NCBI GenBank assembly: GCA_030692565.1
Contig: JAUYAO010000058.1
Coordinates: 124,001-188,000, forward strand
DNA length: 64,000 nucleotides
DNA from: Nitrospira sp.
GTDB lineage: Bacteria > Nitrospirota > Nitrospiria > Nitrospirales > Nitrospiraceae
Reading direction: 5' to 3'
The notes beneath the pieces are model-generated. The model had not been told where the DNA came from, did not search any database, and was given only the letters and a program-made list of their open reading frames with translations. Below, one piece after another: positions 7,658 through 39,465 of this stretch. Both the position numbers and the translations under genes were made by a program. The first letter of the stretch is position 1. Each line of letters opens with the position of its first letter.

Positions 7658-8500
7658 TCACCTACGTTCCGTCTTCTGCTCATGAGGCGCCCGCAAGACT
7701 CGATGCGGATCCGAAAGCGGCTCGGCCCGCCTCAACACGCGCCACAAGCCACTCGGATTGAAACCGGCTGACAATATTCTCCAGGCCACCATCCGAGTAA
7801 TACCGGCGATGTCATCCAGCGGACGGAAATGGCTTGGACGAGGTCCCGAGCGGGACAAGACCGTCACTGGCACCGACCGGCAAGAGAATCCTCTTTGGAC
7901 GGCCTCGATCACAATCTCACTCTCAAACACGAAACTCCGCGCACGATCGTAGGGAACCGCAACCCCTTGAAGCACCACCGTGGGATAGAGCCGAAACCCT
8001 GACTGACTATCCTCGACCGGGAATCCAGCCGCCCATCCGATCCAGAAATCAGCCACTCGATTGGCAAAATACCGCCAGAACCATGCTCTTCGCTGATCCC
8101 GCCGCCTGGCACCGAGCAAGAACAGGCTCGAGTCCTGAGCCGCGGCCGCTAGAAACAACGGAATTTCTTCGGGAGCATGTTGCCCGTCGGCATCCAGCGT
8201 GATGACGCCGGCCGCTCCCTGCGCGAGAGCGTGTTGAAATCCTTTCCAGAGACTGCCGGCTTTCCCGAGATTCTCTTCGTTGCGTAGAACCGTAACGTCC
8301 AGCCCCGTAAGCGCCTTATCAGTCCCATCAGTCGAACCGTCATCCACCACAATCACATTGGCGCACTGCTGTCTGGCACGCAGGGCCACATCACGAACCG
8401 TCGCCGCTTCGTTGTAGGCCGGAATCACGACCCAGTAGGATTGAGCACTATCGTATAGCTCAGAATGCTGCTCAGTCACCGAGAGATGTCCTACCATCAT
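7658..8500 (-). CDS. Family 2 glycosyltransferase, DPM synthase-like
   Basis: A GT-A fold glycosyltransferase: VVIPAYNE at the start of the domain, VVDDGSTDGT for nucleotide binding, and TLDADGQH carrying the metal-binding DxD. The overall form resembles polyprenyl-phosphate mannose synthase or glucosyltransferases, but without C-terminal membrane spans. Glycosyltransferases of this type are regular members of aryl polyene clusters. It is the last gene of the minus arm but is separated from the ketoreductase by a repeat element, so it may have its own promoter. ATG at 8500 is used; GTG at 8512 and ATG at 8497 are alternatives. Confidence 0.85.
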   Translation of the reverse strand: MMVGHLSVTEQHSELYDSAQSYWVVIPAYNEAATVRDVALRARQQCANVIVVDDGSTDGTDKALTGLDVTVLRNEENLGKAGSLWKGFQHALAQGAAGVITLDADGQHAPEEIPLFLAAAAQDSSLFLLGARRRDQRRAWFWRYFANRVADFWIGWAAGFPVEDSQSGFRLYPTVVLQGVAVPYDRARSFVFESEIVIEAVQRGFSCRSVPVTVLSRSGPRPSHFRPLDDIAGITRMVAWRILSAGFNPSGLWRVLRRAEPLSDPHRVLRAPHEQKTERR

Positions 8501-8539
8501 TGTGCCTATCACAAGCGTAGTTGCCTAACTGGTCTTGTT

Positions 8540-8709
8540 GCAGGATGGTCAAAAAGGTCACTGTCTCACCCGCCCAACCCCGGCGCGCCGAGACGCGCCG
8601 TTCCGCAGGCAAGGCCGCAGCAAGTGAGGGGCCGAGGCGTACCCTCTGGGGTACGTTGAGGGTCTGAACGACGCGAGAACGAAGCCGGAGGCCTTTTTCA
8701 ACATCCTGC
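8540..8709. repeat. Short element with terminal inverted repeats, copy 1
   Basis: The ends 8540-8557 and 8692-8709 are inverted repeats of each other, matching at 16 of 18 positions (GCAGGATGGTCAAAAAGG against CCTTTTTCAACATCCTGC). Inside are a hairpin CGTACCC-TCTG-GGGTACG and a GC-rich hairpin near 8580. A related 124-bp copy lies at 24510-24633. The element stops 3 bp short of the FabG-like stop codon. It could be a MITE or REP-type element and may act as a terminator. Confidence 0.8.
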
Positions 8710-8712
8710 CTT

Positions 8713-9441
8713 TCACGCCATGCCTCCGTTGATGCCGATAACCTGACCGGTGATGTACCCCGCTTGTTCGGACACGAGGAACGAGACGAGCGCCGCGACT
8801 TCTTCCGGCGTCCCCACTCGCTTCATCGGCACCATCGCATCGACCTGCTCTGGCTTGAATGACTGTCTCGTCGCCGACGACTCGATCAAGCCTGGCGCAA
8901 CGACATTCACAGTGATCCCTCTGGACGCCAGCTCGATCGCCAGCGACTTGCTGGCTCCGTGGAGACCGGCCTTCGCCGCCGCATAATTCGTCTGTCCGCG
9001 ATTGCCGGTTACTCCGGCCAGTGACGAGATCGAGACGATCCTCCCCCAGCGGGTGCCGATCATCGGCAGCAACAACGGTTGAGTGACGTGGAAGAATCCG
9101 TTCAACGACAGATCGACAACCTTCCTCCACTGCGCTTCCGTCATCCCGGCCATCGGAGCATCGTCATGAATGCCTGCGTTATTGACGATCACCTGGATCG
9201 GCCCGTCGGCAAGCAGGACCTGCAGCGCCTGTCCTGTGGCTGCACCATCGACAATGTCAAAGGTCGCCACCGTCGCCGACCCTCCTCCGGCCGTGATCTT
9301 CTCTGCCACCTGCTTCGCCGATGCGCTGTGCCGATACGCATGCACGATGACCGCATAACCGTCCGCGGCGAGCCTCTCGCAGATCGCGGCGCCGATCTCA
9401 CCGCTGCCGCCCGTCACCAATGCGCGTTTCTTTGTCATCAT
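8713..9441 (-). CDS. 3-oxoacyl-ACP reductase (FabG-like SDR)
   Basis: A short-chain dehydrogenase: TGGSGEIG (10-17) binds NADPH, NNAG is at 87-90, and the catalytic residues are Ser140, Tyr153 and Lys157 (YAAAK). The closing IGINGGMA is typical of FabG. It reduces the beta-keto group of the growing ACP-bound chain. It overlaps the upstream dehydratase by 4 bp (ATGA), so it belongs to the aryl polyene-type operon rather than to primary fatty acid synthesis. Confidence 0.9.
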   Translation of the reverse strand: MMTKKRALVTGGSGEIGAAICERLAADGYAVIVHAYRHSASAKQVAEKITAGGGSATVATFDIVDGAATGQALQVLLADGPIQVIVNNAGIHDDAPMAGMTEAQWRKVVDLSLNGFFHVTQPLLLPMIGTRWGRIVSISSLAGVTGNRGQTNYAAAKAGLHGASKSLAIELASRGITVNVVAPGLIESSATRQSFKPEQVDAMVPMKRVGTPEEVAALVSFLVSEQAGYITGQVIGINGGMA

Positions 9442-10669: not shown

Positions 10670-11877
10670 AGCGCTCCCAACACGAGACTGCAGTTATTGC
10701 CCCCGAATCCAAAAATATTACTCACCACACGCCGGATCGGCCGATCCTCGTTCTCACGGAGAATGCGGCTGCGCAACGTCGGATCGACCCGTTCGCAATT
10801 GAGCGTACCGGGGATGAATCCCTGCTTCAGACACAGGGTCGCGATGACGGCCTCCGTGACTCCTGCCGCCCCTAACGTGTGTCCGGTCCAGCCCTTCGTC
10901 GAACTGCAGGCCGGCCCATCGGCAAAGACCGAATACACCGCCTTGTCCTCGACCGAATCGTTGGCTCGAGTCGCCGTTCCGTGCAGGTTGATATAGTCGA
11001 TGTCTGACGGCTGCAGGCCGGCCCGATCCAGCGATTGTCGAATCGCGCGAATCGCACCGGCGCCTTCCGGATGAGGATGCGACATGTGATACCCGTCGGT
11101 GCTTTCGCCGTACCCCAGCAATGCGATGGCTCCCTTCCGGCCCACCCGCTCGCTCGATTCGAGGAGCACATACCCCGCCGCTTCGCCCAGCGAGAGCCCG
11201 TCGCGATCTTCGTCGCAGGGCCGGCAGGGGCTCGTCGAGAGCAGTTGCAGAGCGGAAAAACCGTACAATGTCGTGTGGCACAGACTATCCACGCCTCCGA
11301 CAATGGCCGCATCGCAGAGACCGGCCTGCAAAAAGCGCGCAGCCGTCGCAAACACTTTGGCGCTCGACGAACAGGCCGTCGAGATGACCATCGCGGGCCC
11401 CCGCAAACCGGCGCAGGCTCGCACGAAATGGCCCAGCGAAAACATGTTATGGGTGTAGCGGTACCGGGAAGCATACCGCTGCGGCAGCGAACCGGTCTGG
11501 GGATCGCGATTCCGATAGGCTTGCTCGGTCTCGAGAATGCCCGAGGTGCTGGTGCCCATCACCACGGCGATCCGATCGGCGCCATACCGCTGTTTCGCTT
11601 CTGCCACCGCGACCATAAACCCGTCCTGCTGGAGCCCTAACCAGGCTAGTCGATTGTTCCGGCAATCGAAGGGCTCTAAGTCATGGCCGAGCGAAAACTC
11701 TTCAAGCCCCGCGACTCGCCCGATGTAGGTCTTGAGCAGCACGTCTTCGAAATCGCACGGCGTCAGCCCCGAACGGCGTGCGCGCAAGGCCTGAGACACG
11801 GCGCCCACTCCGCGCCCATTCGCCGTCACGAGCGTGTAGGCCGAGAGCGTCAACGGTGTCATCGGTCGTTTAGGCAT
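10666..11877 (-). CDS. Beta-ketoacyl-ACP synthase (FabF/KAS II-like)
   Basis: A complete condensing enzyme of 403 residues. The active-site Cys169 is in STACSSSAKVF, with His299 in NLHGTAT and His333 in GWTGHTLGAAGV, giving the Cys-His-His triad; FGFGGNN is the C-terminal glycine loop. It should extend the ACP-bound chain by two carbons with malonyl-ACP, working with the short KAS-like partner just downstream. The start is ATG at 11877, preceded by GAGGG. An odd feature is that the first 16 or so codons are duplicated 133 bp upstream in a short open frame (11870-12010), so the gene has a remnant of an older or second 5' end in front of it. Confidence 0.9.
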   Translation of the reverse strand: MPKRPMTPLTLSAYTLVTANGRGVGAVSQALRARRSGLTPCDFEDVLLKTYIGRVAGLEEFSLGHDLEPFDCRNNRLAWLGLQQDGFMVAVAEAKQRYGADRIAVVMGTSTSGILETEQAYRNRDPQTGSLPQRYASRYRYTHNMFSLGHFVRACAGLRGPAMVISTACSSSAKVFATAARFLQAGLCDAAIVGGVDSLCHTTLYGFSALQLLSTSPCRPCDEDRDGLSLGEAAGYVLLESSERVGRKGAIALLGYGESTDGYHMSHPHPEGAGAIRAIRQSLDRAGLQPSDIDYINLHGTATRANDSVEDKAVYSVFADGPACSSTKGWTGHTLGAAGVTEAVIATLCLKQGFIPGTLNCERVDPTLRSRILRENEDRPIRRVVSNIFGFGGNNCSLVLGAL

Positions 11878-12010
11878 TGGGTTGCCCTCGTTCGCCACAA
11901 CAATCCAGGCCGGCGGTAGCGACCACGTCGATCCTGCAACAAGCATTCGCCGTAACCAGCGTATAGGCCGAGAGCGTCAACGGTGTCATCGGTCGTTTAG
12001 GCCTCGGCAT
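11870..12010 (-). pseudogene. Duplicated 5' end of the ketosynthase gene (leader ORF)
   Basis: A 46-codon frame starts at ATG 12010, overlapping the MMPL stop, and encodes PKRPMTPLTLSAYTLVTAN, the same as the start of the ketosynthase. It then diverges and stops at TAA 11870-11872, overlapping the real ketosynthase ATG (11877). About 53 bp are shared (11950-12002 against 11822-11875), with synonymous differences (TATACGCTG against TACACGCTC). It looks like a tandem duplication or recombination scar that kept the stop-start overlap and may now act as a coupling leader peptide. Confidence 0.7.
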
Positions 12011-24509: not shown

Positions 24510-24633
24510 GCGGATGCTCAAAACGCCAGCCAACAAGGCCGCAGGCGAGAGACAACCACAGGCGTATCCTTTGGGGTACGTTGAGGATTGGATCGAGCCG
24601 AGAACGCAGTTCGCTGTCGTTTTCAGCATCCGC
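24510..24633. repeat. Short element with terminal inverted repeats, copy 2
   Basis: Ends 24510-24525 and 24618-24633 are inverted repeats matching at 15 of 16 positions (GCGGATGCTCAAAACG against CGTTTTCAGCATCCGC). The core shares AAGGCCGCAG, GGGGTACGTTGAGG and GAGAAC blocks with copy 1. The central hairpin is CGTATCC-TTTG-GGGTACG, where a T-G pair replaces the C-G of copy 1. It abuts the stop codon of the AIM24-like gene. Confidence 0.8.
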
Positions 24634-39087: not shown

Positions 39088-39465
39088 GACCTTCTCATCA
39101 TCTCCCTGGATGGGCGATGGCACTGAGCCTGACGACACTCCCGTTGGCGCTATGAAAGCTGGCAACCCGCCGTCGTATATGACTTCAGATGAGGCTGCCG
39201 CACGCTCGGCGCCGCCGGGAAATCCGTCGTTATCCTGATCGCGATTGACTCCGACTGGCACTCGGTCTAGCCTGCCGTAAGACTTGATCAATTCGGCCGA
39301 CTCTAGTGGACTGTAACAGTTAATTTGAGAGTAATTTGCCGCTGTGATGCCGCTGTATTCACTCTCATTTGCGCCACATCATCACGCTTTTCATGGTTAC
39401 GGTGATACTGCCGATCTAATCGTTACAGTCCACTAGTTCCATACCGTTTCGACCGAAGGAGTCGT
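39088..39465. other. Intergenic region containing a MITE
   Basis: 378 bp between the PilZ gene and the GH63-like gene. It holds the 134-bp inverted-repeat element at 39303-39436 and, next to it, the ribosome binding site AAGGAG for the GH63-like gene. The rest has no recognisable gene. Confidence 0.5.
39303..39436. mobile_element. Mariner/IS630-type MITE
   Basis: Perfect 15-bp inverted repeats at 39303-39317 (CTAGTGGACTGTAAC) and 39422-39436 (GTTACAGTCCACTAG). Read as TA plus GTGGACTGTAAC, the ends carry a TA duplication, the target of IS630/Tc1-mariner transposases. The interior has a direct GCCGCTGT repeat and an outer GAGAGT/ACTCTC dyad, but no transposase frame. Confidence 0.75.

Follow-up and report, generated by a model that had tools for sequence, protein, structure and literature searches.

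The window analysed here is the whole stretch of 64,000 nucleotides from Nitrospira sp. Two of its genes lie on the minus strand with an element between them. The upstream one encodes a short-chain dehydrogenase (8713-9441; PF13561/PF00106), the downstream one a family 2 glycosyl transferase (7658-8512; PF00535). The element follows the stop codon of the dehydrogenase gene. It is bounded by CAGGATGGTCAAAAAG and CTTTTTCAACATCCTG at 8541-8708, is 168 bp long, and is read on the + strand, which is the strand with the predicted fold. An initial annotation had proposed an interspersed element at 8540-8709; it is real, and the proposed coordinates are right to within one base (8541-8708).

The element is built as an outer stem around several inner parts. 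The left arm of this stem (8541-8556) carries at 8550 the C of a conserved C.C mismatch, and the right arm (8693-8708) is also the right end of the element, 4 bp away from the stop codon of the dehydrogenase gene. Inside lie a conserved internal loop with a left strand at 8611-8620 (AAGGCCGCAG) and a right strand at 8674-8681 (CGAGAACG), and a central hairpin at 8638-8655, CGTACCC-TCTG-GGGTACG. Nested next to the left arm is a GC-rich module (8560-8608) with its own 7-bp hairpin, CGGCGCG / CGCGCCG. Judged by eye against 124-bp and orthologous copies, this module replaces some 5 nt of the basic form.

That basic form, 124 bp long, is found in a second copy at 24510-24633, also on the + strand. 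Its ends have changed yet still pair (GCGGATG / CATCCGC), and its right-hand 72 nt match the first copy at 76%. The two diverged copies with a common layout that had been described earlier are thus both present, as is the reported change of a C-G pair to T-G in the central hairpin (CGTACCC/GGGTACG against CGTATCC/GGGTACG).

The evidence from the window alone is weaker, and it is the comparison of copies that reveals the structure. The end motif occurs 4 times in the window with up to 3 mismatches, a number reached by 3 of 100 shuffles. For the single window copy, folding has a z of -1.89, and 11 of 200 shuffles fold equally well. A pattern scan of 8400-8900 matched nothing terminator-like or promoter-like. 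An Rfam scan of the window gave no family over its gathering score except a tRNA, and for L121, a locus with a core copy, it gave three matches at E≤1, all far under their cut-offs.

The window holds other repeats as well. A 64-nt direct repeat (11817-11880 and 11944-12007, 92% identical) spans the start of a gene named by eye as beta-ketoacyl-synthase-like, as if the gene start had been duplicated. There is also an inverted repeat, CTAGTGGACTGTAACAGTTAAT..., at 39303-39333 and 39406-39436. It is 134 bp across with CTAG at both outer ends, and may be another small element.

In the 4.17-Mb source genome, BLAST found at least 44 matches at E≤0.01; of 93 candidates, 40 were scored. With up to 2 mismatches allowed, the end motif was counted 115 times and its reversed-pattern control 4 times. 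Curation of the window and other stretches of the genome yields 62 copies with both ends. The underlying scan tolerates at most 7 mismatches over both ends, so older copies are missed, and six overlapping or false entries were left out, four of them about 200 bp long (L045, L046, L078, L080). A covariance model, R1, gives 89 rows at E≤0.1 in the same genome, of which at least six are the same place on the opposite strand.

Copy lengths peak at 121-126 bp, and the 36 copies of this size make up alignment A1. Longer copies of 155-174, 191-193 and 226-238 bp have extra inner modules, and there are short forms of 41, 84, 111 and 117 bp.

The inner modules show some behaviour of their own. The GC-rich one, of the form TCTCACCC-CCCAACCCC-hairpin, is seen at varied positions and in both orientations (8560-8608 in the window; L054 2546-2713; L073 3619-3787), for which reason it may be a separate mobile hairpin. 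At orthologous site S1 in genome G039 its stem is altered with pairing kept. Another hairpin of about 33 nt, CCTGCCTGCGCGAAGCGCTTCGGCGAAGGCAGG, sits within the CGAGAACG loop (L059 2488-2643 and 3522-3747; L219 at site S5).

A hairpin of 43 pairs was drawn on the 36 short copies. In it 87.9% of cells are paired, a figure that leans towards the fold because the same sequences were used to draw it; slid versions of the fold reach 34.6-42.8%. As many as 32 of the 43 pairs are altered on both sides, and none of 500 shuffles equals the fold on any of five measures. The compensatory change in these sequences supports the view that the core fold has been selected. Selection on structure had been suggested before from a single changed pair; the case is now far stronger. 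Unpaired parts are conserved as well. The outer-stem mismatch has C in both columns in 36 of 36 copies, and in the internal loop 10 of 18 columns are invariant.

Wobble pairs favour the + strand as the one that folds. In A1 there are 75 GT against 44 AC, excluding two near-constant positions which themselves show GT 54 and AC 0. A second set of 41 copies has GT 90 against AC 26. This set was hand-chosen from 107 matches and omits some weaker full-length ones (for example L226, L257, L263 and one in L283), and its constant positions are not independent, since the records were chosen by an exact pattern that fixes some core bases. The + fold is the more stable one for 31 of the 36 A1 copies and for 40 of the 41 in the second set. 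This also holds for 76 of 108 shuffled sequences of equal composition, and for 24 of the 36 once the central hairpin is excluded, so much of the strand asymmetry is in the central part.

The 124-bp core is not the whole element. Complete units are some 200 bp long and consist of a variable left module, mostly 74-78 bp, followed by the core. They start with CAGGCTGCGGAAAAAC or, in a minority, with CAGG-TGTTGACAAAC, and end with CAGCATCCTG or similar. Terminal inverted repeats are found at both true ends of such units; the window copy has the arms of the core only. The initial annotation had neither the left module nor the abutment of right ends on stop codons described below.

Complete units often carry a 4-bp target duplication. 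Among 43 units with left module and core, from the own genome and from related genomes that are only partly independent, the outer 4-mers are identical in 24 and one base off in 11 more. Shuffling the partners of these 43 units gave a mean of 10.3 identical pairs and a maximum of 21 in 1000 shuffles. All but two of the 24 identical flanks (22) are YTAR, that is CTAG, TTAG, CTAA or TTAA; the others are TCGA and CGAA. An overlapping scan of the same loci recorded 30 end pairs with identical 4-mers (CTAG 17, CTAA 5, TTAG 4), 21 of them 196-202 bp long. It recorded identical 4-mers alone and therefore gives no rate.

Within the own genome, 7 of the 62 copies have a left module and matching 4-mers, and in 2 more the 4-mers are one base off. 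L046, L078 and L080 were confirmed as complete units. A supposed left-module copy at L050 (CCGG) is a weak chance match and was left uncounted. In the other 53 of the 62 no left module can be recognised, and they consist in essence of the hairpin core. Among these, YTAR stands on the right in 13 and on the left in 5, being the same on both sides in 2; its background frequency is 0.24%. The window copy belongs here. It lacks both a left module and a target duplication, its right flank being CCTT with no equal 4-mer on the left. There is little homology between the left flanks of the own copies (3 pairs) and none between the right flanks.

IS5-group insertion sequences prefer YTAR targets, and the own genome has five matches to the transposase family PF01609. 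One of these belongs to a 1,369-bp insertion sequence on contig C13 (L378 1320-2688), which reads CTAG|CAGGGTGTTGACAAAC...GTTTGTCAACAGCCTG|CTAG. Its terminal repeat is CAGG-TGTTGACAAAC. It encodes a protein of 356 aa with DUF772 and DDE_Tnp_1 domains, for which the nearest NCBIfam models are IS1182 (206 against a cut-off of 270) and IS5_4 (130 against 140). It is called IS1182/IS5-like here because it scores below the IS1182 family cut-off. As far as examined, the window itself indeed holds no known mobiliser, as had been stated earlier; with L378 the genome does have a candidate.

The CAGG-TGTTGACAAAC repeat of L378 is shared with complete units L155, L299 and L344 in relatives. The differences are that L378 encodes a transposase, and that no hairpin core is seen at its ends. 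Within the own genome the match is partial, because L378 has the TGTTGACAAAC end and the best own left modules have CAGGCTGCGGAAAAAC. Of 76 genus genomes, 31 have related transposases (E≤1e-10), and most of the insertion sequences in question have TGTTGACAAAC-type ends. By our own reading 18 of their loci have plausible end pairs, 12 of these with identical 4-mers (CTAG 11, CTAT 1). Three of the relatives, L393, L394 and L399, have at both ends CAGGCTGCGGAAAAAC, the commonest left end of complete units; identical flanks are seen in L399 only. No transposase of the L378 group was found in several element-rich genomes, such as G003, G014, G040 and G065.

A span of 1,609 bp with matching CTAG (L278) was considered as an autonomous element and rejected. 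By eye, it is two adjacent copies around an ordinary dehydrogenase-like gene.

The element had also been called REP-like. Canonical REPs, according to PMC6006769, measure 21-65 nt, have GT[AG]G as their 5' foot and lie near a RAYT. If the element were a REP/BIME-type palindrome, a Y1 (RAYT) transposase would move it as single-stranded DNA. There is a real resemblance: an interspersed imperfect palindrome in many copies, with a conserved mismatch, often near stop codons, and with one strand that folds better. Y1_Tnp matches number 5 in the own genome and occur in 61 of 76 genus genomes, and the closest copy lies about 1.7 kb from a Y1 gene on contig C34. However, the 5 Y1 genes have no copy within 1.5 kb to either side, with one of them, at a contig end, partly covered. 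At E≤1e-3, Y1_Tnp has no match in the element-rich genomes G003, G014, G024, G041 and G065, and conversely G038, G047 and G050 have Y1_Tnp yet no elements. Of 62 copies, 5 have GTAG as the 5' foot on the - strand, and none has GT[AG]G at the + foot. The 124-nt core exceeds the REP lengths quoted above, and there are 4-bp duplications. Searched with PF01797 in the own genome and the genus, dependence on a RAYT is unlikely given this lack of linkage and the abundance of elements in genomes with no Y1_Tnp match, and a REP/BIME origin as a whole is very improbable. What stands of the earlier description is the resemblance.

At L104 (about 1410-2140) a Y1_Tnp (RAYT-like) gene lies between GGGGACAGGCTAC-type inverted sequences, apparently its own REP. 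In G019, at site S5, the central hairpin of one element is replaced by a sequence resembling the GGGGACAGGCTAC type.

For the window site, 24 loci were compared, and 21 of them were read by eye. The core is present in 5, remnants in 2, overlapping genes with nothing in between in 4, and other spacers without the core in 10. In empty alleles the two genes directly adjoin, or the glycosyl transferase start overlaps the stop of the gene before it. The first 66 or so bases of the window's glycosyl transferase gene (7658-8512) match nothing in these empty alleles, and the insertion seems to have given this gene a new N-terminus and leader.

The five core-bearing loci have very similar flanks and differ inside. 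The own genome has the core plus the GC module; G068 has the same with its central hairpin deleted; G051 has a different module; G023 is the plain 124 bp; and G040 has both modules. Read along the genes, the first 58 bases are identical to the window copy at 58, 58, 58 and 55 positions in the four relatives, and the last 21 bases at 21, 19, 19 and 21. In the gene next to the element, identity at third codon positions is 0.885, 0.856, 0.753 and 0.679. The low divergence of the element could reflect constraint, or homogenisation by recombination between copies.

Besides the window site, five others in L053 show, by eye, empty, occupied and replaced states. Among 9 genomes, site S1 is empty in 4, has the core in 4 and other sequence in 1, and by eye there are paired changes between its orthologous copies. 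The element at site S4 is 96, 93 and 90% identical to that in three relatives. The core is kept in place while inner modules come and go, to which recombination could contribute. With 62 copies, 4-bp duplications in complete units and empty orthologous sites, the earlier suggestion of a MITE spread through the genome holds.

Copies are placed in a particular way relative to genes. In 32 of 62 copies the right end is no more than 3 bp from a stop codon that faces it, and in 22 of these the distance is 0; for left ends the count is 3 of 62. Stops adjoining an end are TAG 22 times, TAA 5 and TGA 5; in the loci as a whole the numbers are TGA 140, TAG 114 and TAA 80. The gene layout is usable for 59 copies: 32 are in tandem with the right-side gene, 10 in tandem the other way, 10 convergent and 7 divergent. 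Distances and layouts rest on our own simple gene caller. Copies are not confined to coding sequence: an overlap of more than 30 bp with a called ORF was seen in 10 of the 59.

The flush position would follow from target choice. Since YTAR contains TAG or TAA, its duplication on insertion at a stop codon would restore the stop, leaving ends that abut stops. The orientation bias, 32 against 10 tandem copies, is beyond what the choice of YTAR targets alone explains.

Another explanation would be convergence, with the copies being nothing but ordinary intrinsic terminators of similar appearance. They do have AAAAAG...CTTTTT around a GC-rich stem, and copies sit at gene ends. Against this stand homology over 124 bp in tens of copies, the target duplications and the conserved unpaired loops, which together refute convergence as sole explanation. 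In addition, the scan for terminators is negative at the window copy, and at site S1 the T-run has shrunk to TTT. The chance that convergent terminators account for the family is close to nil.

R1 matches occur in 73 of 79 genus genomes at E≤0.01, with up to 44 candidates scored per genome. The six with no match (G038, G044, G045, G047, G048 and G050) may be an element-free clade. In the phylum, 182 of 395 genomes and 59 of 169 genera have matches at E≤0.001, with up to 8 candidates scored per genome. The exact core pattern was found in at least 120 stretches of named genome contigs. Among the 80 stretches listed, 4 are deltaproteobacterial, from Desulfosarcina widdelii, D. alkanivorans, the Olavius algarvensis Delta 4 symbiont and another deltaproteobacterium; the rest are named Nitrospira, Nitrospiraceae, Nitrospirae or Nitrospirota, with one Nitrosospira among them. 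The cultured species N. moscoviensis is one of the carriers. One exact pattern run against viral contigs found no element, nor did blastn against plasmids and phages with one core copy as query.

R1 confirms the four deltaproteobacterial loci with best E-values of 2e-10 to 9e-15. Their cores have the same internal loop and quite unlike outer stems. By eye, the paired stem begins within about 3 nt behind a stop codon, in the same orientation and with no YTAR. The preceding genes, by Pfam, are an acyl-CoA dehydrogenase, a nitronate monooxygenase, a ribonucleotide reductase and MlaA. In the Olavius symbiont, two full cores and one partial one are in tandem behind the MlaA-like gene (L266 285-712).

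These loci bear on a different reading, in which the core would primarily be a structured RNA or DNA part at gene 3' ends that spreads by several routes, with the Nitrospira MITE as one carrier. Its support is the internal-loop core in two Desulfosarcina, the Olavius symbiont and the other deltaproteobacterium, directly behind stops of Pfam-confirmed genes in the same orientation, as well as a core conserved at fixed sites where inner modules vary. Then again, sites are empty in relatives, nothing terminator-like or promoter-like is matched around the window copy, and the strand that folds better runs antisense to the gene upstream. On these comparative data this reading is unlikely, though not negligible.

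In a related proposal, the core might be a structured element common to Nitrospirota and Desulfobacterota, carried by transposons and retained behind stops for an undescribed function at gene 3' ends. It draws on the compensatory change, the fixed orthologous sites, the one preferred orientation and the fold antisense to the gene. We consider this tentative, at somewhat less than even chances.

The best explanation is that the family is probably a MITE of an IS1182/IS5-like system whose core selection has kept for the fold that it forms at gene ends. The MITE part is the stronger one, the retention part the weaker. An IS1182/IS5-like transposase would move the element in trans, with insertion at YTAR as set out above. 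The left module would then decay or be deleted while the core is kept for a fold that may be useful near gene 3' ends, through an effect on the transcript end, a block to exonucleases or an effect on the end of translation. The window copy would be such a core-only copy plus an extra nested hairpin. Some observations speak against this explanation. The window copy lacks a left module and duplicated flanks, few own copies have both, and L378 has ends of the other type. Several element-rich genomes yielded no transposase of its group, and of the three insertion sequences with CAGGCTGCGGAAAAAC ends two have unequal flanks. The orientation bias goes beyond target choice, the fold favoured by wobbles on the antisense strand suits a role at mRNA 3' ends poorly, recombination between copies could account for low divergence at one site, and the Desulfobacterota copies follow stops with no YTAR.

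MITEs and REPs near stop codons are already known kinds. Like IS5/IS1182-type MITEs, the element is small, has terminal inverted repeats and a 4-bp duplication, and is matched by similar-ended insertion sequences in the genus. Unlike them, it has a large constrained hairpin core that recurs outside the phylum without these ends, and most own copies lack one end. BOX, NEMIS and ERIC-type palindromes are modular, with optional inner modules. The Nitrospira element resembles them in this build, as far as their general description goes. REPs within 15 nt of a stop codon have been discussed as translation regulators (PMC12306157). The Nitrospira family has no Rfam match over the gathering score in the window, and the titles and abstract beginnings of open-access work pairing Nitrospira with repeat, palindrome, MITE and transposase topics do not describe it.

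The relatives of this Nitrospira include nitrite oxidisers and comammox bacteria. Within the group, copies of this fold stand behind genes by the dozens, and a likely type of mobiliser can now be named. That YTAR includes TAG and TAA offers a simple and testable reason why a transposon can lie flush with stop codons and do no damage. Finally, there is a natural experiment here: at the same orthologous gene ends some relatives lack the element, some have the bare core and some have a core with further hairpin modules. Transcriptomes of related strains would therefore show how a mobile 3'-end hairpin affects gene expression.
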